A stretch of DNA of 64,000 nt from Fibrobacter succinogenes (GCA_902799745.1 CADCBQ010000009.1:36781-100780), one strand, 5' to 3'; positions 35,751-45,924 are shown, numbered from the stretch's first letter. Made by a program: numbers and translations. Notes: generated by a model not told the origin, from the letters alone.

Positions 35751-37430
35751 TCACAGGCATTTCATGTGGCCATCTTTCTGCTTTTCGCACCAGTTGTCGC
35801 AAGTAACGGGGTGGTAATAGTCGCAGATTCTCTGAACTTCGCGCTTGATAATGCTCGACTTCTGTTCGGTAAGGTAGTAGCGGCTCACCAAGGCGCTCTG
35901 GCACTGTTCCACGTTGGGCCAATCACGGTCGGCGCACCAGGTCCACAGATAATCCTTGCAGTAGTTGGCTTCCGGGCTGACGATGCACAGTTCGTATAAG
36001 TTGTAGCAATCGGCAATCTTGTTATTTTCGAAGTTGCTTGCCACGCAGTAGCGTTTGAGGCCATCGGCGTAGGCATTCGACTTGAGTCCGTCATTAATCG
36101 TATCGGGCAAGAACATGGACCACTTGGTGGTATCGAGCATCATGGCAGCCTTTACGTTAGAGGCGTAGCATTCTTCTTGATCTCGACTGTATACGGTATC
36201 GCTATCGCGGTACCATTCATACGCTCTGCTATTGAGTTCTGCCAAATCTTCGTTCCGGAATTGTTCAGCATCGATTCCTGCACAATAGACATCTTGATAA
36301 AGCCTGCACCCCTTGGAATCCCAACTGCCCGATAGGTCGCCTTCGGTGTTGTAACAGTTGTGATGCGCAATATGTTTCATATTCACGCCATTGCCGTCGA
36401 CATACAAATCGATTGACGACTTCGCCATTCCGCTAAACACACCCATTCCATTTTCAATGTTGGATTCAGGCACAATTCGCGAATCGTTCACCGATTCCTT
36501 CACCTTGTCGATATAGTCAATATAGGCCGCATCGGTCGAATAGAAATCTACCGAAATATTCCCAAGCGGCATCATCATGTTCATCAGGTAAAGCGTATCC
36601 AGCGCATAATAGTCGGCCACCCTGCGGTTCGAGGTATAGCCAAGGTTCTGGGATTGTTCCAACGGATCATGAATTGCAATTCCGCGATAACCTTGATCAT
36701 CTTCGTCGGTAAAGCCCTTGAACATGTGATTAATCGTGGTATTCTGCGACTCGGCATTCTTCATGCCATAGTTCATGATCGATATGACTCCCTTGACGGA
36801 CCTGTCATAATTCATGGCGCACTTCACGAATTCCATATCCATGGGGAATTCCAGGAACTCTATTTCAAACCTAGGACTCTTTTCGTCGTAAGGAATCCAC
36901 TTGTAGCTACCGTCTTGCTGGGGCGCATTCAGCCCCTTGACGCTTACCGGATTCGGAATGGTAGCCTCTGCCGTGTAGCGGGATTTCGCCTTGTGTCCCG
37001 AACTGTCCCATTCAAAGTAGGCTTCCATGGTGTAGGACTTGCCCACGATGCCTTCGTATCCGTAGGTATAAAAACAATTCGGTTTGTCTCTATAAGCCCA
37101 CAAAACAATTGTCGTATCAACATCTTCGCCGTAGGCAGGCCTTTTAAAATAGCCCTTCACGGTTACGTAGGCGCTATCATAGAAAGCAAAATTCTGGGCC
37201 GACGTTTCGTCGAGTTCATAGACTTTCGAAAAACAGATTTCGGGTTTTTCGCCAGCCACAATGTAACCGTAAGTGTAGATACCCGTATACACGTCGCGCT
37301 TTTCGGGGTAGTAATCCCACGGGCCGTGAAAATCACTACAAGCCGCGAGGAATAAAGCTACGAGAAGAAAAAGTACCCGCACTACGCTCAGGATGACACC
37401 ATTATTATTTTGTCTAGAAATAGTACTCAT
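35751..37430 (-). CDS. Lipoprotein partner of the TonB-dependent receptor (DUF4249-like)
   Basis: A 559-residue lipoprotein: hydrophobic signal ending FLAAC (Cys31). Residues about 40-300 are beta-rich (YTGIYTYGYIVAGEKPEI, DSAYVTVKGYF) and recall the DUF4249 lipoproteins encoded beside TonB-dependent receptors in Bacteroidetes; that match is by pattern and position only. The C-terminal third is Cys-rich (about 16 Cys, e.g. CADRDWPNVEQC, CDNWCEK), which fits DsbD-supported oxidation outside the cytoplasm. The start overlaps the receptor stop by 17 bases. The signal-peptide codons just after the start consist of a copy of the REP-like repeat (GVILSVV), an unusual origin for a signal region. Confidence 0.65.
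   Translation of the reverse strand: MSTISRQNNNGVILSVVRVLFLLVALFLAACSDFHGPWDYYPEKRDVYTGIYTYGYIVAGEKPEICFSKVYELDETSAQNFAFYDSAYVTVKGYFKRPAYGEDVDTTIVLWAYRDKPNCFYTYGYEGIVGKSYTMEAYFEWDSSGHKAKSRYTAEATIPNPVSVKGLNAPQQDGSYKWIPYDEKSPRFEIEFLEFPMDMEFVKCAMNYDRSVKGVISIMNYGMKNAESQNTTINHMFKGFTDEDDQGYRGIAIHDPLEQSQNLGYTSNRRVADYYALDTLYLMNMMMPLGNISVDFYSTDAAYIDYIDKVKESVNDSRIVPESNIENGMGVFSGMAKSSIDLYVDGNGVNMKHIAHHNCYNTEGDLSGSWDSKGCRLYQDVYCAGIDAEQFRNEDLAELNSRAYEWYRDSDTVYSRDQEECYASNVKAAMMLDTTKWSMFLPDTINDGLKSNAYADGLKRYCVASNFENNKIADCYNLYELCIVSPEANYCKDYLWTWCADRDWPNVEQCQSALVSRYYLTEQKSSIIKREVQRICDYYHPVTCDNWCEKQKDGHMKCL
37374..37397. repeat. REP-like repeat, partial copy B (inside a signal peptide)
   Basis: Contains the CTCAGGATGACA end of the element and lies within the first codons of the lipoprotein gene, where it encodes GVILSVV. 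Confidence 0.55.
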
Positions 37431-39948
37431 AATTCAGCATAATCGGTAAAAAGGGGAACTGAGTAATTTCGGTCTTTTCTGGCGGGTTCTTGCTCGTATC
37501 GTAGAAGGTATAGAACATGTTCTTGTGGTCGGTCAGGTTGATAATCGTCCAACTGAAACTCCACTTGTTTTCGCGGCCAATGTCGATTGCCTTTACGTCA
37601 ACGCGGAAGTAATCCGATTGGCGAGCGGCATTGCGGCTACCCGGCAACACGATCGTTTCATCGGTATACTGCTGGTGGCCCAAATCCTGCGACACATAGT
37701 AGCCTTTGTATTCGCTGATGGGCATACCCGCGGAATACTTCATGATAACAGAAGAACGAACGTACATGTCCTTTTGCGTCGGGTGAACCGACAAGGCGTC
37801 TTCTTTACCGCGCCAGTTAATGCCCAAGTCCATTTTGAGCGCGTAAGGCTGATGCCAGCTCGGGAAATAAGGCTTGGTGCCGTCATCCGTCTTCATGACA
37901 CTAATGCTCTGGCTCCAGTTAATGCCGCCAAACCACCAGCCTTTATCTTTGCGCAGTGACAGTTCGTAACCGAAGGAATAACCTTCCGCCGTGCCGAATC
38001 CGTCAGCCACCACAAAGTCATCCGAAGTGGTTTCATCGTTACTGTCGAGCACGGCCACGAACGTGTTCAAGTTGCTTTGCGTCTTGTAGTAAACACCCAC
38101 GGTCGCATCGTAATCGTCAAAGATACCGCGCTGGCTATATTCCGCCGCAAACAGCCAAGAAGAAGCGGGATCTATATGCTTGCCCTTGGTGGTTGTCGTG
38201 GCCGGGTAATAGAATTCGTTCAGCGTTTCCTGGTCGGTATAGACGATTGAATTCAAGTACTGCAGGTAATAACCGCCGTAGAATTCCACCGTCTTGTCAT
38301 CATCGATATTCACGGTCAAGGAGGCACGCGGTTCCACGCCAAAGTGTTCCGCTGCCGTCTGGTAGTTAAAGCGGAGGCCGTATTGCAGCAGGTAATCGGG
38401 AGCAAACTTCCAAGCGTCTTGCAGGTAGCCCACATGGTGGAACGGTTCCTGAATATCGACTACACTGATAGTAGACATCTGTTCGCGGTAACGTTCGTAA
38501 TCGTATTCCAGTTCGTAGCCCACGGTGAGCGTATGGTTCGGAATACCGCGGTAGTTGACCCACTGCTTGCCCGCGAAGGTATACAGGAACATTTCAATCG
38601 ACATGAGATCGCCGATTTTCATAGTCTGGTAGAATTCACTGAAGGCAAGCGTTGCGTTATAATCCCAGTCGCCATTAAAGCGGTGATAAATGCCGAGCGG
38701 TATCGCGATGTTACCCCAGTCCATATAAAGCGGATCAAAGCTCAGGCGGTCTTTACCGACGTAGAAGCTCAGCTTCATACGTGTATCGTCGGTAAAGTTG
38801 TACATGAATGTTCCCTGCAAATCGGTAAATTCATAGTCCAGATCAAGGTCGATAATGTCGAGAGCGTTCATCAAATCTAGCATATAGCCGATGTAGGTCG
38901 TACGCCCCGCGAGCACCCAGCGAGCGGGCCCCTTGTGACCTTCGGTGTGGAGTTGCGCGGCAAACGTACTGATCTTGATACTCGACTTGCTGAACCATTC
39001 ATCTACGGTATCCTGGCCACCGGCGCGGCCATCCATCTTAAGCACGGAACTTAAGCGGTTACCGTACTGCGCCGGAAATCCGCTCTTGTAGAATTGCACA
39101 TCGTCAATACCTTCGACGAGGAACGTGCTGAAAAGTCCGAAGAAATGCACCGGCGAATAAACAACCGCATTATCGAACAGGAACAGGTTCTGGTCGGCAG
39201 CGCCGCCGCGCACATAAATCTTGGAGCTAAAATCGGAGCTGGCGACCACGCCCGGGAGCGCCTGGATACTCTTGATCACATCGGCTTCGGCAAGGCTCGG
39301 CATACGCTTAATCGATTTTGCAGATACCACAGATTCGCCAGGTTTACGCTTGGGGCGGCGGCGGAGTTGTACCACGACTTTCTTAAGTTCGGTCACCTTG
39401 GCGTTATCGCCGCCGGCGAGGAGCGCATCGACATCGACGTCTTGCTTCGCGCTGTCAGATCCTTCGGTTTCGCCCTGACGGGCTTCACTCAGGATGACAC
39501 CGGCGGAATCTCTCGCAACAGCAACGGCGGAGTCTCTCGCTGCAACACTGACGGAATCTTGCGGGACAGCACCTTCAGTAGAATCAGGTTCAGCGAATGC
39601 TTCGCCGAGAGTCTGCGAGAAGTTGCGTTCAGCACCAATGTACTTAAGTTCGTAGCATTTTTCTTTTTCGGCGCCCGCCGTATCGGAATTGGTGACGCAC
39701 ACATTCCAAAGGGTATCTTCGGGGAGTACGACGCTAAAAGGCGTTCCCACGGTGGTTTGCAACGCCTCGCCCGACTCTAGAATTTCGACATTAAGTTTTT
39801 CGCCTGCAGCAAAGGAAGAATCCTGTACAATTCCGTTAAAAATGATTCCCGGAACCGCCACCGAGTCTACCTCAGACGCATTTTCTTGGGCCGCGACTAT
39901 CGCGGCCACAAACAACAAACAGATGACAATTCTCTCAATCAACAGCAC
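37414..39948 (-). CDS. TonB-dependent outer-membrane receptor
   Basis: An 844-residue receptor. After the signal peptide there is an N-terminal beta domain (about 30-115), then a repetitive Ala/Asp/Ser linker (SVAARDSAVAVARDSAG) with an inserted REP-like sequence. The plug (about 205-320) is clear: SLAEADVIKSIQALPGVV, KIYVRGGAADQNLFLFD, GNRLSSVLKMDGR. The remainder is a 22-strand-type barrel ending in LNYEYYF. Such receptors import oligosaccharides, siderophores or cobalamin with TonB-ExbBD energy; the ligand cannot be told. Translation starts at a GTG (39948), with no in-frame ATG before the signal peptide. It is the first gene of a likely three-gene unit with the lipoprotein and nitroreductase. 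Confidence 0.87.
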   Translation of the reverse strand: MLLIERIVICLLFVAAIVAAQENASEVDSVAVPGIIFNGIVQDSSFAAGEKLNVEILESGEALQTTVGTPFSVVLPEDTLWNVCVTNSDTAGAEKEKCYELKYIGAERNFSQTLGEAFAEPDSTEGAVPQDSVSVAARDSAVAVARDSAGVILSEARQGETEGSDSAKQDVDVDALLAGGDNAKVTELKKVVVQLRRRPKRKPGESVVSAKSIKRMPSLAEADVIKSIQALPGVVASSDFSSKIYVRGGAADQNLFLFDNAVVYSPVHFFGLFSTFLVEGIDDVQFYKSGFPAQYGNRLSSVLKMDGRAGGQDTVDEWFSKSSIKISTFAAQLHTEGHKGPARWVLAGRTTYIGYMLDLMNALDIIDLDLDYEFTDLQGTFMYNFTDDTRMKLSFYVGKDRLSFDPLYMDWGNIAIPLGIYHRFNGDWDYNATLAFSEFYQTMKIGDLMSIEMFLYTFAGKQWVNYRGIPNHTLTVGYELEYDYERYREQMSTISVVDIQEPFHHVGYLQDAWKFAPDYLLQYGLRFNYQTAAEHFGVEPRASLTVNIDDDKTVEFYGGYYLQYLNSIVYTDQETLNEFYYPATTTTKGKHIDPASSWLFAAEYSQRGIFDDYDATVGVYYKTQSNLNTFVAVLDSNDETTSDDFVVADGFGTAEGYSFGYELSLRKDKGWWFGGINWSQSISVMKTDDGTKPYFPSWHQPYALKMDLGINWRGKEDALSVHPTQKDMYVRSSVIMKYSAGMPISEYKGYYVSQDLGHQQYTDETIVLPGSRNAARQSDYFRVDVKAIDIGRENKWSFSWTIINLTDHKNMFYTFYDTSKNPPEKTEITQFPFLPIMLNYEYYF
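39458..39499. repeat. REP-like palindromic repeat, copy C (inside the TonB receptor gene)
   Basis: Full-length element, GATCCTTCG to CTCAGGATGACA, lying in frame within the receptor coding sequence and translated as VILSEARQGETEGS in the linker before the plug. Confidence 0.7.
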
Positions 39949-40308
39949 ACTCTTCTTGTATACAAAATTTAAAAAATGTCGTCACAGGGACATGCCCCAT
40001 GCATCATGTAAAACACCCAAGAGCACTAAAAATGTTACCATAAAATGTTTTTTTCTGAAAAAAGCGGTCAAATGGCTCCGATTCCCCCGGAAAATCAAAG
40101 AAAATCGTCTTTTTTTACAAAATTTTTTAGCATAGACATTGTACAAACAATAGTCATTTTTTTTGACAATAGAAAATCATTTTTGTGTTCAAAACACAAT
40201 ACAGAGTACATACAAATTCAACAAAAACGAGCGTTCACAAAAAACAGCTCCGAAATAAGAACTTATACTAAATTTGTCATACAAACTTCTAAAAAAAAGA
40301 GGATGATT
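39949..40308. other. AT-rich divergent intergenic region, 360 bases
   Basis: Between the TonB receptor and the subtilase-like gene. Markedly AT-rich, with T-runs, an inverted repeat TTGTGTT/AACACAA (40183-40199), another ATTGT/ACAAT nearby and a promoter element at 40269. An open frame runs through part of it in phase with the downstream gene but lacks a ribosome site. Confidence 0.5.
40269..40276 (+). promoter_or_regulatory. TAnnTTTG promoter element (subtilase-like)
   Basis: TAAATTTG, 32 bases before the chosen ATG. Confidence 0.5.
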
Positions 40309-42219
40309 ATGAAGAAGTTCATTATAGCAGCTGTTTCGACTGCTTCGGTCTGCATGTGTGCAGCCGCCACCCATTACGACATTCTTGGCCGCAAGAACAG
40401 TCAAATGGAATCCCCTATGGTCTACAAGAATGTAGGTCCCAAGCAAGCTGACGAACAGCAAAATGTCAACAGGAGCATTATTGCCACGAAATCCAACCAC
40501 GCCCTAGCAAGACAAGGTATTAACGGGAATAATGTCGTCGCAATCGAAGGTGTTCAAGATGATTTGATTAGGTCAGATTTACACAACCAAATTGTCGCCT
40601 ACACTCCAAGCGGAATTGTCCGTAGAGTTCGACAGCTCGCGCCGGAAGAATACATCAGCATTGCAAACAGCTACTTCACCCAGGTCCAAGACAGAGAAGC
40701 AAGTTCCTCCAGTTATACAAGCGCGAAAAGAACAAATTCGCCGGATTACACCGTAACGTTCCCAATAAACAGCATGTCGTCTGACCACACTCAAGCATCA
40801 CCCTACGAGTATGGGGCAACCACAACATATTCAACATTATCTTATGTACAAAATCGGTCCAAAAAAGGAGCCGTTTCTTGGTATTTTAACGGAGATGCCT
40901 ACGACTCTCCGGACATCGGCGTTTATATTTTCAACGACGATTTACCGGCAAAAGCCTCATACAACGGCGATTATTCGTTTATTCCCCTAGACGACTGTGC
41001 AATGAATTCTGTCATCGGATACGAAGTCATCGCATCTAAAACGGCGCATATATTAAACAGAGCGTCTATGCATTCCAAGATCTTTGCCCACAATGCACGT
41101 TGTAACACGGAATACCCCAGCAGTCCCGAACTAGAATCGCCGCAGATCTATATGGGGCTCCATACACGAAAAGCCACTATAGACGGCGGAAACAATTCTT
41201 CAACAGCAGTGTACTCTGGTACGGCCAAAAAACTTGATAATTACATCTACAACAACCATACGGTAGAAATCGTCGGTGCAGGCAACTTCGGCACTCATCC
41301 AAGAAAAGATGCAGTGCAAGAGGGTAAACTCGCCGCAGAAGCACATGCCGCCAACGCCATCACCGTGGGCGCCGTCAACCCCCTGACCAAAAAGTATGAA
41401 AACTACTCTTCTTGGAAAAATACAGCATACGGCGCTAAAAAACCGGAAGTGGCCAACTACACGAACATCTATTTTAACGAAACCGCAAAAAAATACACCA
41501 CTAGCAGTTCCAATACTTACATTTATCAGCCCTATTACGACGGAACAGAAACCGCCGCTGCCTATACCGCAGCCATGGTGTCTGAACTTTTAAGTCTTGA
41601 ACCTTTCTACAGATGGCATCCTGAAGTTGTAAAGGCTCTTCTGTTAACAGCTGGTGACGAAACCATTGTCAACACCAATCACGATACAGACCAGGGCGCA
41701 TCACAAATTCTCAGTTACAGGACTATTTTAGGCACCAATTATTATAGGAATCAGAGTAGATACTGGATTGGAGACATCAATAGATTGGCTACAAACAAAA
41801 CAACCAATGGCATTACGAAAAAAGAAATCAAGTTTAATGTGGAAGTAACCGCGGGCGCTACATACAAAGCAGCCATCGCATGGTTGAGTAGCGGCGACGA
41901 TATTGCCAAATACGGACGAATTCCGCAAGACTTCGACCTTTATGTCTACAAAAATTATAACGCAACCTCCTATTTTGAAGACGCCATAGGGAAAAAGCCC
42001 TCTCACATTTCGGACATGTACCGTCTATACACAACAAACTATAACAACGACGACTTGATTACACACGCACAAAACGAAGGAAAGAATCCTTATGAAGTGT
42101 TGCAATTCACCGCCGATCGAACGGGAATTGTCACCTTCAGCATCATTCTTTATGAAGATCGAGGCGAAACAAACAAGGACAAGGTCATCTTAGGATTCAA
42201 CGTCCTCGAAATCAGCTAA
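40309..42219 (+). CDS. Secreted subtilase-fold protein with Glu in place of catalytic Ser
   Basis: A 636-residue exported protein. The ATG at 40309 follows GAGG by 6 bases; another ATG at 40303 abuts it and is less likely. A signal peptide ends near CAAA. The middle follows the peptidase S8 fold: VGAGNFGTH (oxyanion strand, about 322-330), AANAITVGAVNP and YENYSSW, then DGTETAAAYTAAMVSELL (411-428), which lines up with the S8 motif GTSMAAPHVAG. The nucleophile position is Glu414, not Ser. A candidate Asp (about 210) and His247 (SKTAHILNRA) are only weakly placed. The C-terminal about 130 residues resemble a P-domain-like sandwich. It is probably a pseudoprotease. The gene is AT-richer than its neighbours. 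Confidence 0.65.
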   Translation: MKKFIIAAVSTASVCMCAAATHYDILGRKNSQMESPMVYKNVGPKQADEQQNVNRSIIATKSNHALARQGINGNNVVAIEGVQDDLIRSDLHNQIVAYTPSGIVRRVRQLAPEEYISIANSYFTQVQDREASSSSYTSAKRTNSPDYTVTFPINSMSSDHTQASPYEYGATTTYSTLSYVQNRSKKGAVSWYFNGDAYDSPDIGVYIFNDDLPAKASYNGDYSFIPLDDCAMNSVIGYEVIASKTAHILNRASMHSKIFAHNARCNTEYPSSPELESPQIYMGLHTRKATIDGGNNSSTAVYSGTAKKLDNYIYNNHTVEIVGAGNFGTHPRKDAVQEGKLAAEAHAANAITVGAVNPLTKKYENYSSWKNTAYGAKKPEVANYTNIYFNETAKKYTTSSSNTYIYQPYYDGTETAAAYTAAMVSELLSLEPFYRWHPEVVKALLLTAGDETIVNTNHDTDQGASQILSYRTILGTNYYRNQSRYWIGDINRLATNKTTNGITKKEIKFNVEVTAGATYKAAIAWLSSGDDIAKYGRIPQDFDLYVYKNYNATSYFEDAIGKKPSHISDMYRLYTTNYNNDDLITHAQNEGKNPYEVLQFTADRTGIVTFSIILYEDRGETNKDKVILGFNVLEIS

Positions 42220-42278: not shown

Positions 42279-44600
42279 TTAGAACCTACCCACAGTAATG
42301 CCCGAGTAGAATCCGGGCCACCAGCGACCTTTATGCTTTTCGCTACCGAAGTCGTCGTGGTAGTTGTTCCAAGGCTTGAGCCAAATCTCGTCCGCATCGC
42401 CAATCGTCGCCCAGTTCAGCGAGCCACCCACCGTAAGGCCTAACCCTGGGAACAGCTTATGTACAAAGCCCAAGCGCAGGCGGTGGTGGTAATTGTAATT
42501 GTTTTCACCGCTGAAAGCAACATTTTCGAAGGCATTCAAGAACATGTATTCCAACTCAAAGTGGTTGCCGTACTTGCCGAACTGCGTACCGACACCGTAG
42601 CCGCTTTCGTAGTGATCTTCAAAGCGTTTGAATCCTTCACCCTTTTCAAAGGGACGAGCCCATTCAAAGGCGGTGTAGAAATAAGCTGTACCCAAGCGAA
42701 GCGAAAGATCTAAAACTCCCATTTCGTTCAAGGACGTTGTCACAGCCCACACACCGTTGCCAACGACGCTGATAAAGCCCACCGGAGTCTTTTCGCATTC
42801 CAAGCAAACGTTCACAAAACCCACCTGGCGACCCTTGGACTTGGGAGCCACATTCACATAGCCCACCTGCGTGCCGCCTTCCCAAGCCGTGGCATTCACA
42901 AAGCCCACGCCTACACGGGAATTGACCGCCACATTCACAAAGCCCACTTGAACATCGGCGTCCTTGGCGACATCGACAAAGCCGACCTGCACTTTGGAGC
43001 CCATACTCGTGTTCACAAAACCAACGTGAGTCTTGCTGTATTCAGAAGCGTTTACAAAACCCAGTTGCAAATAGCGCATGGTATCGAGAGCGGCATTCAC
43101 AAAACCGATTTGCGCCGCTTCGGATTTTTCAGATGCCCAGTTGATATAGGACAGCTGCAAACCATCGACGCTTTCGGCATAGTTCACGGTACCCGAAATC
43201 TGTGCACCATCAATGTTTTCGTTTGCGATATTCAAGAGGCCCGTCAGCTGGATACCTCGCATATCCTTATCGGCACTGTTCACAAACAAGCTAACCTGCG
43301 AACCGACCATGTAATTTTTCGTCTTGGTCGCAAAGAGACCCAGCTGCACGCCCTTGCGCGGATTCTTGTCGCGGTCGTAAAAACCAAACGTCGTGCGAGA
43401 AACTCCGTTGCGGTCAAGCGAATCCAGGGAGCATTTTGCCGTATCGCCATTAGCGCAAGAACGTTCGCTCTTGATTTCGCCGCGAAGAGCCGTCTTTTCG
43501 ACAGCGACCGCCGTGAACTGCTTTTTGCCGAGACGCGCACGGTTGTTGTCATAAAGCGTGATCGATGATTCCTTATATTCGGCAGGACGTTCCAAGCGTA
43601 CGCTGTACTTACCGGCAGGGAACCCGAGGCTCATGGCGCGACCAGATTTCTTGTAAAGTTCGGCGACAAGTTCACCCTTTTCGTCGCGAATGAACAAGTG
43701 ACCGTCTACATCTTCGTCCAAGTCGAGGCCTGCGCTCGTGCTGCGCAAATCGGTCATGACCACGTCACCGGTGCCCGCCAAATTCATGTCGCGGCTGGGG
43801 TGCTGGGCGCCACCCATGGTGGCTTCAGTCTTCTGGAGAGTTTCATTGAAGGCGAACTGGTAAGCTTCAGAAAGCGTCACCTTGCCGTCACCGCTCACAT
43901 CGCCTGCGCCGCGAAGGCCGCTCACCAGCGAATGCGTGAAGAAGGATCCCTTAAGTTTGTCGCTTTCCTGGCTAGATTCATCTTGAGTGCTGCTGGTGAT
44001 AAAGGCGTAGCCTTTCATGTCGCTGCTCTTGTCGACCATGAACGCAGGCACAGCGACACCGCCCTTCACGCGCGTAATGGCACCCGAACCGCACGCATCG
44101 ATTACGGCGATTTTCACATCGGCATTCAGAGCATCAATACGCTTGCGGAATTCTTTCCAGCTATAAATTTCTTCACCAAGACGGAGTCCCTTTTCGTCGG
44201 CGTGGCCGCTATAATACACCAGCACTTCTTCGCGGGTTTCAACATTCTTCGCAGACTTGGCGGCCGAAAGCTTTTTATCGAGATCGTCCAGTTGCTTCTG
44301 CAAGTTCGCGACACTCGGTTCAGTCACGCGATACACATTCTGCTTGGGCACGCCGCCCATTTGCGAAAGCACATTCGCAAAGGCGCGGGCATCGCTTTCG
44401 GCATAGCGCAGCACCGGGCGACCCTTACCACCGTTATTCGCGCTCACCGCAAACACGTAACGGTTAATCGCAATTTCGTTCGATGCGGCTGCATGCGCGT
44501 TGCTTGCCGCAGTCAAAAGCGCCACCAGGCAAACCAGGCAGAAAATGGCAGAGCCCGTCAGAAAATCGCAGAATAAAATTTTACCCAAAAATCTCTTCAT
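42279..44600 (-). CDS. Caspase-like (C14) protease fused to surface repeats and C-terminal barrel
   Basis: A 773-residue exported protein with an N-terminal hydrophobic signal (about 12-38). The caspase p20-like domain (about 42-280) has catalytic His133 in VYYSGHADEKG and Cys170 in AVIDACGSG, and an EF-hand-like loop GDVSGDGKVTLSEA follows. A beta-rich region leads to about ten repeats of 18-20 residues built on QVGFVNVA (about 420-600), like the LA_2272-type surface repeats of Leptospira. The last about 170 residues are strand-rich and end in ITVGRF, a C-terminal Phe as in outer-membrane barrels. It is the third gene of an operon with an anti-sigma-like and an ECF sigma gene. The cleaved target is unknown. 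Confidence 0.78.
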   Translation of the reverse strand: MKRFLGKILFCDFLTGSAIFCLVCLVALLTAASNAHAAASNEIAINRYVFAVSANNGGKGRPVLRYAESDARAFANVLSQMGGVPKQNVYRVTEPSVANLQKQLDDLDKKLSAAKSAKNVETREEVLVYYSGHADEKGLRLGEEIYSWKEFRKRIDALNADVKIAVIDACGSGAITRVKGGVAVPAFMVDKSSDMKGYAFITSSTQDESSQESDKLKGSFFTHSLVSGLRGAGDVSGDGKVTLSEAYQFAFNETLQKTEATMGGAQHPSRDMNLAGTGDVVMTDLRSTSAGLDLDEDVDGHLFIRDEKGELVAELYKKSGRAMSLGFPAGKYSVRLERPAEYKESSITLYDNNRARLGKKQFTAVAVEKTALRGEIKSERSCANGDTAKCSLDSLDRNGVSRTTFGFYDRDKNPRKGVQLGLFATKTKNYMVGSQVSLFVNSADKDMRGIQLTGLLNIANENIDGAQISGTVNYAESVDGLQLSYINWASEKSEAAQIGFVNAALDTMRYLQLGFVNASEYSKTHVGFVNTSMGSKVQVGFVDVAKDADVQVGFVNVAVNSRVGVGFVNATAWEGGTQVGYVNVAPKSKGRQVGFVNVCLECEKTPVGFISVVGNGVWAVTTSLNEMGVLDLSLRLGTAYFYTAFEWARPFEKGEGFKRFEDHYESGYGVGTQFGKYGNHFELEYMFLNAFENVAFSGENNYNYHHRLRLGFVHKLFPGLGLTVGGSLNWATIGDADEIWLKPWNNYHDDFGSEKHKGRWWPGFYSGITVGRF

Positions 44601-44610
44601 GTCATCCCCC

Positions 44611-45387
44611 TTATTTTTCCACCTTGCGGAGCGTGAACGAAACGGTTTCCACTCCAGTCTGCTTCAGGCTCTTGTCGATATCGTTGCCGTCAATTCCAAA
44701 AGAGTTCTGCGATGTAAGCAAGAAAAACTTTTCGAATTTCGGCGCATTGTCCAGCTTGTAGGCAAACGGAAGCGTCGTCATTTTACCGGGTTCCAATTCA
44801 ATGGCCTTGTCGCCCTCGCCCATGTGCATGGTAATGGTTCCGTTGCCGTCCATGCTAATGAGCATGCCAAAGCACTTTTGCGGAACACGGTAACGCAGCT
44901 GGATTTCGTCGCCTTCGTAGGCGTTACCCAAATTCACCATTTGCACGGCGCTGTCGCCCGTCTTTTTCCAGACTTCGAGCGTTGCCTGCATACCCTTGAT
45001 ACGCGTACCGTTATCGACATCGGCCATGGCAACTTCCATCGAGGCGGAATGATTGTCGTAAGTAGCGACATCGCGGTTCAAGACAACCATCGAGAATACG
45101 CCGAGAGCGATTACGAGAGCGGCGGCCACCTTCAGCCACAGCGTGTTCACGCCACGGAATTCTGTAACATTTTCGCGGCGGCCCAAGTCTTCCAGCTTGT
45201 CATCGAGTGCGGCAAACGGATTTTCCGCTAAAAAGCGCTTGCCCTGTTCGCGCATTTCACGCACACGGGCGGCAAAAATCTCGTCGCTCAGTTCACGTTC
45301 CTGGAGTTCGCGCATTTCTTTTTCGGGCAGTTCCCCAAGCAAATAGCGTTCCAGCTTGAAATCGGAAATTTTATTGACAGATGTCAT
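44611..45387 (-). CDS. Anti-sigma-factor-like single-pass membrane protein
   Basis: A 258-residue protein with a cytoplasmic N-terminus (about 1-80) typical of anti-sigma proteins: a short acidic helix (KLERYLLGELPEKEMRELQ) and Glu/Arg-rich helices, but no Cys/His zinc motif. One transmembrane helix (about 82-103, LWLKVAAALVIALGVFSMVVL) is followed by a beta-rich periplasmic domain of about 150 residues resembling the DUF4384-type sensor domains found with bacterial caspases. Its ATG overlaps the sigma stop in an ATGA junction, giving translational coupling. It probably holds the sigma factor at the membrane until an outside signal arrives. The caspase gene follows after 10 bases. Confidence 0.7.
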   Translation of the reverse strand: MTSVNKISDFKLERYLLGELPEKEMRELQERELSDEIFAARVREMREQGKRFLAENPFAALDDKLEDLGRRENVTEFRGVNTLWLKVAAALVIALGVFSMVVLNRDVATYDNHSASMEVAMADVDNGTRIKGMQATLEVWKKTGDSAVQMVNLGNAYEGDEIQLRYRVPQKCFGMLISMDGNGTITMHMGEGDKAIELEPGKMTTLPFAYKLDNAPKFEKFFLLTSQNSFGIDGNDIDKSLKQTGVETVSFTLRKVEK

Positions 45388-45887
45388 CTTTCAACCTCCA
45401 GATTCTTGATCTTGGCTTGCAGGGTACGCAAACGCTTGCGCACGCCACTCACCGAAAGTCCAACGGTTTCAGCAGTTTCTTCCAGAGTCATGCCGTCTAC
45501 ATAATGCAGCGTGGCAATCGTGCGGGTCGATTCCTGCTCCTTCGAGAAAATCTTCGCCAAAATTCCCCTGGCTTCTAAGCCATCATCTTCTTCGGCGCAG
45601 GCGATGGTGAGCAAAAGTTCGCTCGAATCACAATCAAGCCCACGGCGTTTCTTGTCGCGAATGCGGTTCAGGCAGAGCCTGGTCGCCGTATTCCACAGCA
45701 AGCTCGACGGCTGCGACAAATCCAGGGAATCCATGTGTTCGAACACGCGCATAAAAACATTCTGCACCATGTCCTTCGATTCGGCATCGTCCTTGAGCAG
45801 GAACATGCAACGCCTGTAAACCATCGGGGCATAAGCCTCGTACAGTTTCGAAAACGCCATGCGGTCAAGGAGATTTTTCCCGTTCAT
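45384..45887 (-). CDS. ECF RNA polymerase sigma factor
   Basis: A 167-residue sigma factor with both conserved regions. Region 2 covers about 10-80: FSKLYEAYAPMVYRRCMFLL, then DMVQNVFMRVFEH and LLWNTATRLCLNRIRDKKRR. Region 4 is at about 110-160 with TIATLHYVDGMTLEETAETVGLSVSGVRKRLRTLQ, a full helix-turn-helix. It is the first gene of the sigma/anti-sigma/caspase operon and has a TAnnTTTG element 37 bases upstream. It presumably activates its own operon and perhaps surface genes. It resembles ordinary ECF factors of Bacteroidetes/Fibrobacteres more than the divergent sigma at 25001. Confidence 0.88.
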   Translation of the reverse strand: MNGKNLLDRMAFSKLYEAYAPMVYRRCMFLLKDDAESKDMVQNVFMRVFEHMDSLDLSQPSSLLWNTATRLCLNRIRDKKRRGLDCDSSELLLTIACAEEDDGLEARGILAKIFSKEQESTRTIATLHYVDGMTLEETAETVGLSVSGVRKRLRTLQAKIKNLEVER

Positions 45888-45924
45888 ACCATTGTAACAC
45901 TAGAGGAAGTTAAAAGTGTCACCG

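Follow-up and report, generated by a model that had tools for sequence, protein, structure and literature searches.

A caspase-type protease of Fibrobacter predicted to be anchored in the outer membrane, in the probable regulon of an ECF sigma factor

To our knowledge, most bacterial caspases have no assigned function. Fibrobacter, a key degrader of cellulose in the rumen, encodes a caspase directly beside an ECF sigma factor and an anti-sigma factor, and we asked where in the cell this protease acts and what it does for the circuit with which it is encoded. The locus lies in a stretch of 64,000 nucleotides of Fibrobacter succinogenes DNA, called the window here (Table 1). The first-pass annotation had described the three genes as tightly coupled, and the ORFs are where it placed them: the sigma and anti-sigma ORFs share four bases (ATGA) and 10 bases separate the stop codon of the anti-sigma gene from the ATG of the caspase gene. 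The sigma factor contains regions 2 and 4 only (Pfam, NCBIfam), which places it in the ECF group.

Table 1. Positions of the genes, domains and motif copies discussed in the text, counted from the first letter of the window.
Feature	Position	Strand	Basis
ECF sigma factor, 167 aa	45384..45887	-	Sigma70_r2 E 5.1e-12, Sigma70_r4_2 E 1.3e-6; TIGR02937 over cut-off
Anti-sigma factor, 258 aa	44611..45387	-	sequence alignment, DUF4384 matches
Predicted transmembrane helix of anti-sigma, about residues 83-103	45079..45141	-	read from sequence; conserved hydrophobic block in alignment
DUF4384-like, predicted periplasmic domain of anti-sigma, starts at RxKG	44614..45003	-	alignment and DUF4384 matches
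Caspase-solenoid-barrel protein, 773 aa	42279..44600	-	Pfam, NCBIfam, fold models and structure matches
Signal peptide, residues about 1-38, AHA-A end	44487..44600	-	read from sequence; kept in relatives
Caspase domain, residues 44-284	43749..44471	-	fold matches; H133 and C170 dyad
β-sandwich-like linker domain, residues 285-375	43476..43748	-	kept phylum-wide (profile HMM); strands in model
LA_2272-type repeats, predicted β-solenoid of about 13-14 rungs, residues about 401-612	42765..43400	-	NF047436; solenoid matches
Predicted C-terminal 8-strand outer-membrane β-barrel, residues about 613-773, ends GRF	42282..42764	-	model and structure matches
Motif GGTGACACTTTT-N11-GTGTTA	45895..45923	-	GTGTT ends 8 nt before sigma start; 0 mismatches; leaderless geometry
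Second motif copy, 2 mismatches to 29-mer	40011..40039	-	upstream of receptor gene 37414-39948
TonB-dependent receptor, putative regulon member	37414..39948	-	Plug E 4.5e-7; preceded by motif
DUF4249-like lipoprotein, putative regulon member	35751..37430	-	DUF4249 E 1.6e-5, just below cut-off

The Peptidase_C14 profile (PF00656) matched residues 60-237 of the third protein (E 5.9e-12, 46.2 bits against a cut-off of 21.4; Pfam), and the predicted fold of the domain matched procaspase-7 (Z 18.6, rmsd 3.0 over 212 residues) and metacaspase 4 (Z 18.5). A profile search of PDB sequences returned no match. An N-terminal signal and a catalytic pair formed by H133 and C170 had been proposed for the protein, and both proposals held: the signal segment is present and conserved in relatives, the numbering of the pair is correct and the two residues are invariant among 45 relatives. 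The surrounding dyad motifs (YSGH or FSGH, and DxCxxG) were intact in 104 of 104 distinct caspase ORFs. The protein thus resembles orthocaspases and metacaspases (Peptidase C14) in its fold, in the YSGH and DxC dyad and in having acidic residues at positions of the basic S1 pocket, which we take, from metacaspase structures, to consist of D70, S131 and D168. It probably cuts after Arg or Lys, as these S1-like residues suggest. What sets it apart from other orthocaspases and metacaspases is its predicted secretion and its fusion to a predicted outer-membrane anchor. The genome's second Peptidase_C14 protein (L002 73-2550) has a series of fibronectin-like repeats ahead of its caspase domain, and no sigma partner was seen for it. 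In-frame stops occur in the caspase genes of three Fibrimonadales genomes (G006, G007 and G012), which are either pseudogenes or assembly errors.

The full-length AlphaFold model was weak overall (pLDDT 75, pTM 0.42), and on the basis of the first model a reading of the repeats as strands of one large barrel was considered. This reading was dropped because the C-terminal half, when folded alone (pLDDT 90.9, with the barrel mostly at 85-97), matched solenoids over residues 401-615 and an 8-strand barrel over residues 613-772. The solenoid matches were to GlmU, LpxD and HxuA at Z scores of about 10-11, and the barrel matches were to a designed TMB (Z 15.1), OprF (14.8), OmpA (14.0) and NspA (13.3). 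The first-pass annotation had called for an AlphaFold check of a C-terminal barrel, and the outcome agreed with it: the prediction is an 8-strand outer-membrane barrel with a C-terminal Phe and Z scores of 12-15 to OprF, OmpA and NspA. The repeats that it had noticed are also real, as the LA_2272 repeat profile (NF047436) scored over its cut-off (40.6 bits versus 25; NCBIfam). Its count of about ten was too low, since we counted about 13-14 units of 13-16 residues each. Tethering of the caspase to the outer membrane by the C-terminal barrel is thus supported by the models.

In the standard topology of outer-membrane proteins, both ends of an 8-strand barrel are on the periplasmic side. Because the passenger is N-terminal to such a barrel, we infer that the caspase would face the periplasm and not the cell surface. 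The earlier description of a surface caspase is not supported in this respect, as the repeats are predicted to fold as a solenoid and the barrel that follows the passenger points to the periplasm. In type V secretion, too, an N-terminal passenger with a β-solenoid is followed by a C-terminal barrel, and both this arrangement and weak Foldseek matches to autotransporter domains would fit export of the passenger to the surface in the manner of an autotransporter. We nonetheless consider such export improbable, because the predicted barrel has 8 strands (residues 617-772) and its nearest structures are 8-strand proteins (OprF, OmpA and NspA) rather than the 12-strand translocators of type Va, and because deep-branching relatives consist of a caspase and a short β-rich C-terminus with no solenoid. 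Solenoid length differs among relatives, and in loci L102-L105 the solenoid is nearly gone with the barrel end still there. Among the Chitinispirillia loci (L096-L105), some genomes hold several sigma/anti-sigma/caspase copies with solenoids of unequal length, some of them without one.

The NF047436 repeat is shared with the LA_2272 / VC2662 repeat proteins (the match to VC2662, NF047437, was weak and below cut-off), from which the window protein differs in that the repeat is fused to a caspase. On a Persicobacter megaplasmid, an unannotated relative (L127 4001-5023) covers no more of the protein than its solenoid-barrel region, at 28% identity (E 8e-20). Literature searches on LA_2272 and on ActD-like anti-sigmas gave nothing useful, and the main text of the F. 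succinogenes envelope proteome papers does not name the caspase.

We then examined how constant the association of the three genes is. A relative of the caspase was found in 96 of the 111 genomes of the family and in 138 of the 168 genomes of the phylum. The sigma and anti-sigma genes lay beside it at 92 of 105 caspase loci of Fibrobacterota, typically with overlaps of 1 or 4 bases and few bases to the caspase; these 105 loci come from two overlapping collections in which many species appear twice, so that the 92 are not 92 independent cases. A further 20 loci, of deeper branches and of Fibrimonadales, were inspected (at L115 the contig ends before sigma), and the order sigma, anti-sigma, caspase was present in 17 of 17 non-Fibrimonadales deeper loci with long enough contigs. 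Recurrence on this scale is not a matter of chance. Of the 111 family genomes, 90 have caspase together with anti-sigma and 14 have neither, with 6 and 1 discordant (Fisher p 3e-12, uncorrected for phylogeny); in 6 genomes the caspase was kept and no anti-sigma was detected.

Alignment of 61 upstream regions yielded a motif, GGTRACACTTTT-N11-GTGTT, that is mostly placed 8 nt ahead of the sigma start codon. It was found at 54 of 61 sigma genes, in 44 of these exactly 8 nt before the start. The window holds two sites against 0.03 expected. In 29 Fibrobacter genomes a scan that allowed one mismatch at most gave 91 sites, and the reversed pattern, used as a control, gave 2. The genes downstream of these sites belong to the same few families: the sigma operon itself, TonB-dependent receptors (20 sites across the genus), a DUF3450 gene that is the first in an ExbB/ExbB/ExbD/TonB/TPR operon (17 sites), flavodoxin-like reductases (10 and 6 sites) and the DUF4249-like lipoprotein (4 sites). 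In the window the lipoprotein gene overlaps the receptor gene, and in some species it is preceded by a motif copy of its own. At L133 (1038-2905) an exact motif lies ahead of the gene for an FMN-reductase-like protein of 400 aa that contains a Cys-rich motif; a gene for a zinc-ribbon protein comes next. The regulon may thus have a redox component.

We infer that the motif is the promoter of the sigma factor itself and that it would give a leaderless mRNA. The motif could instead be the operator of a repressor, as its arms are complementary (GTAACAC/GTGTTAC) and an inverted repeat is visible in several copies. We think this quite improbable: a conserved TTTT beside the first half has no mirror, the spacing is fixed both between GGTRACAC and GTGTT (15) and to the start codon (8 nt), and exact copies are absent from genomes that lack the sigma factor. 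In 11 genomes with no close sigma homologue there were 0 exact copies and 7 one-mismatch copies in total. Some genomes in which no sigma was found carry one-mismatch copies ahead of a receptor or DUF3450 gene (G046 C67:106982, G044 C8:18179, G041 C133:29132 and G078 C91:7590), and these may be relics, or the sigma gene may be missing from an incomplete assembly.

The strongest evidence that caspase and sigma belong to one regulon comes from Fibrimonadales and MS499-38, in which the caspase is usually apart from the sigma/anti-sigma genes and one genome (G011) retains the operon. The caspase loci had at first suggested that sigma was lost in Fibrimonadales; this was wrong, since most of these genomes encode the pair at another locus. 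All eight unlinked caspase loci examined in these groups have a motif of their own with the ATG 8 nt after it, and in the same genomes the motif also stands before sigma, receptor, lipoprotein and TonB genes. Because unlinked caspase genes carry their own motif, caspase and sigma appear to form one regulon, as had been supposed from the operon in the window.

The caspase could instead be an effector and no regulator: induced by sigma under envelope stress, it would process or degrade other envelope proteins, be it in quality control or with adhesins or the co-regulated TonB machinery as targets. The motif at unlinked caspase loci fits this reading, as does the adjacency of caspase and receptor genes in 22 of the 45 Fibrobacter loci with enough sequence, and we regard it as somewhat less likely than not. 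The distribution of the transport genes speaks against one form of it. The near-complete genomes G097 and G098 have sigma, anti-sigma and caspase and lack both the receptor and the DUF3450-TonB operon, and many genomes with no caspase still hold the receptor (retained in 12 of 15 such genomes of the family) or the DUF3450-TonB operon. Since the caspase and the TonB genes occur without each other, TonB components are unlikely to be an obligate substrate. Together with the co-retention of caspase and anti-sigma, this distribution shows the caspase to be kept along with the sigma circuit and not with the transporter; it argues for a function within that circuit but does not prove it. Fusions of DUF4384 to orthocaspases in other systems (PMC7475262) also point to such a role, as a DUF4384-like domain forms part of the anti-sigma factor.

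The anti-sigma factor is predicted to consist of a cytosolic N-terminal domain, a single transmembrane helix and a periplasmic DUF4384-like domain. Of 31 members, 19 gave a match to DUF4384, with E 1.1e-5 at best. R129 and K131 of the RxKG motif are invariant in 31 of 31 anti-sigmas, and this motif was considered as a site for cleavage by the caspase. It is a weak candidate because distant anti-sigmas keep only the KG, and it may be purely structural. The zf-HC2 zinc motif of class I zinc anti-sigmas is absent from the window protein (Pfam), and in distant anti-sigmas of the phylum zf-HC2 gave a weak match. A search of plasmids for the anti-sigma found none.

Judging from sequence and models, we consider it likely that the caspase is an outer-membrane-anchored periplasmic protease of the sigma regulon. 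An autoregulated ECF sigma/anti-sigma pair would control a small envelope regulon, of which the caspase, fixed to the outer membrane on its periplasmic side, would be part of the constant core, and the solenoid spacer would set how far it reaches. Acting within the sigma circuit, the caspase would have the DUF4384-like ectodomain of the anti-sigma as its first candidate substrate, and induction of the operon would then lead to faster release of sigma. That the caspase does cleave this ectodomain is a hypothesis that we hold to be doubtful. Its fuller form, in which the solenoid-hung caspase spans the periplasm and cuts the anti-sigma as a site-1 protease in a positive feedback, with its reach set by repeat number, seems to us rather unlikely.

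Caspases have been tied to bacterial immunity and cell death elsewhere (PMC8195603), and the fold alone could suggest a module for altruistic death or defence against phage. This is very improbable here: PADLOC gave no match for the three proteins and a phage search for a homologue of the caspase was empty, the protein is predicted to be secreted, its position and gene order are kept across the phylum, and it appears to be co-regulated with transport genes. Caspase neighbourhoods of EACC1/EACC2 also include an ECF sigma gene (PMC8195603). The window protein differs from the EACC1-associated caspase in scoring below the NF047832 cut-off (52.7 versus 140 bits) and in having no detected EACC domain. 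FecI/FecR/FecA signalling is similar in uniting an ECF sigma, a membrane anti-sigma and an outer-membrane barrel with a TonB system in one regulon; here, however, the third gene encodes a caspase, and Pfam detected no FecR domain in the anti-sigma and no STN (signalling) domain in the receptor.

Operons of sigma-70 and metacaspase genes were listed in a 2012 survey for Myxococcus, Anaeromyxobacter, Haliangium, Sorangium, Ralstonia and Fibrobacter (Asplund-Samuelsson 2012, PMC3501461). As here, sigma and caspase share an operon in that list; unlike the present locus, the passage on these operons mentions no barrel, solenoid, anti-sigma ectodomain or regulon. The first-pass annotation knew of no description of this architecture, which stands for the barrel-solenoid fusion in the open literature and does not stand for the sigma-70/metacaspase operons listed in that passage. 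In the open literature searched, neither the caspase-solenoid-barrel architecture nor the promoter motif nor the regulon was found to be described, and these three are what appears to be new here, sigma-metacaspase operons being already known. A bacterial caspase thereby gets a predicted place, on the periplasmic side of the outer membrane, and a partner circuit that is retained across the phylum, and the promoter motif names the genes that would be co-regulated. The substrate of the caspase and the signal are therefore directly testable. If the proposal is true, Fibrobacter gains a predicted envelope-stress or transport regulon.

The window contains one further gene between the caspase and receptor genes, at 40150-42219 on the opposite (+) strand. 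Searches of Pfam and the PDB gave no match for it, and its product scored weakly with the subtilase profile of PADLOC (E 6e-5). It seems to have been inserted into a cluster that is otherwise all on one strand.
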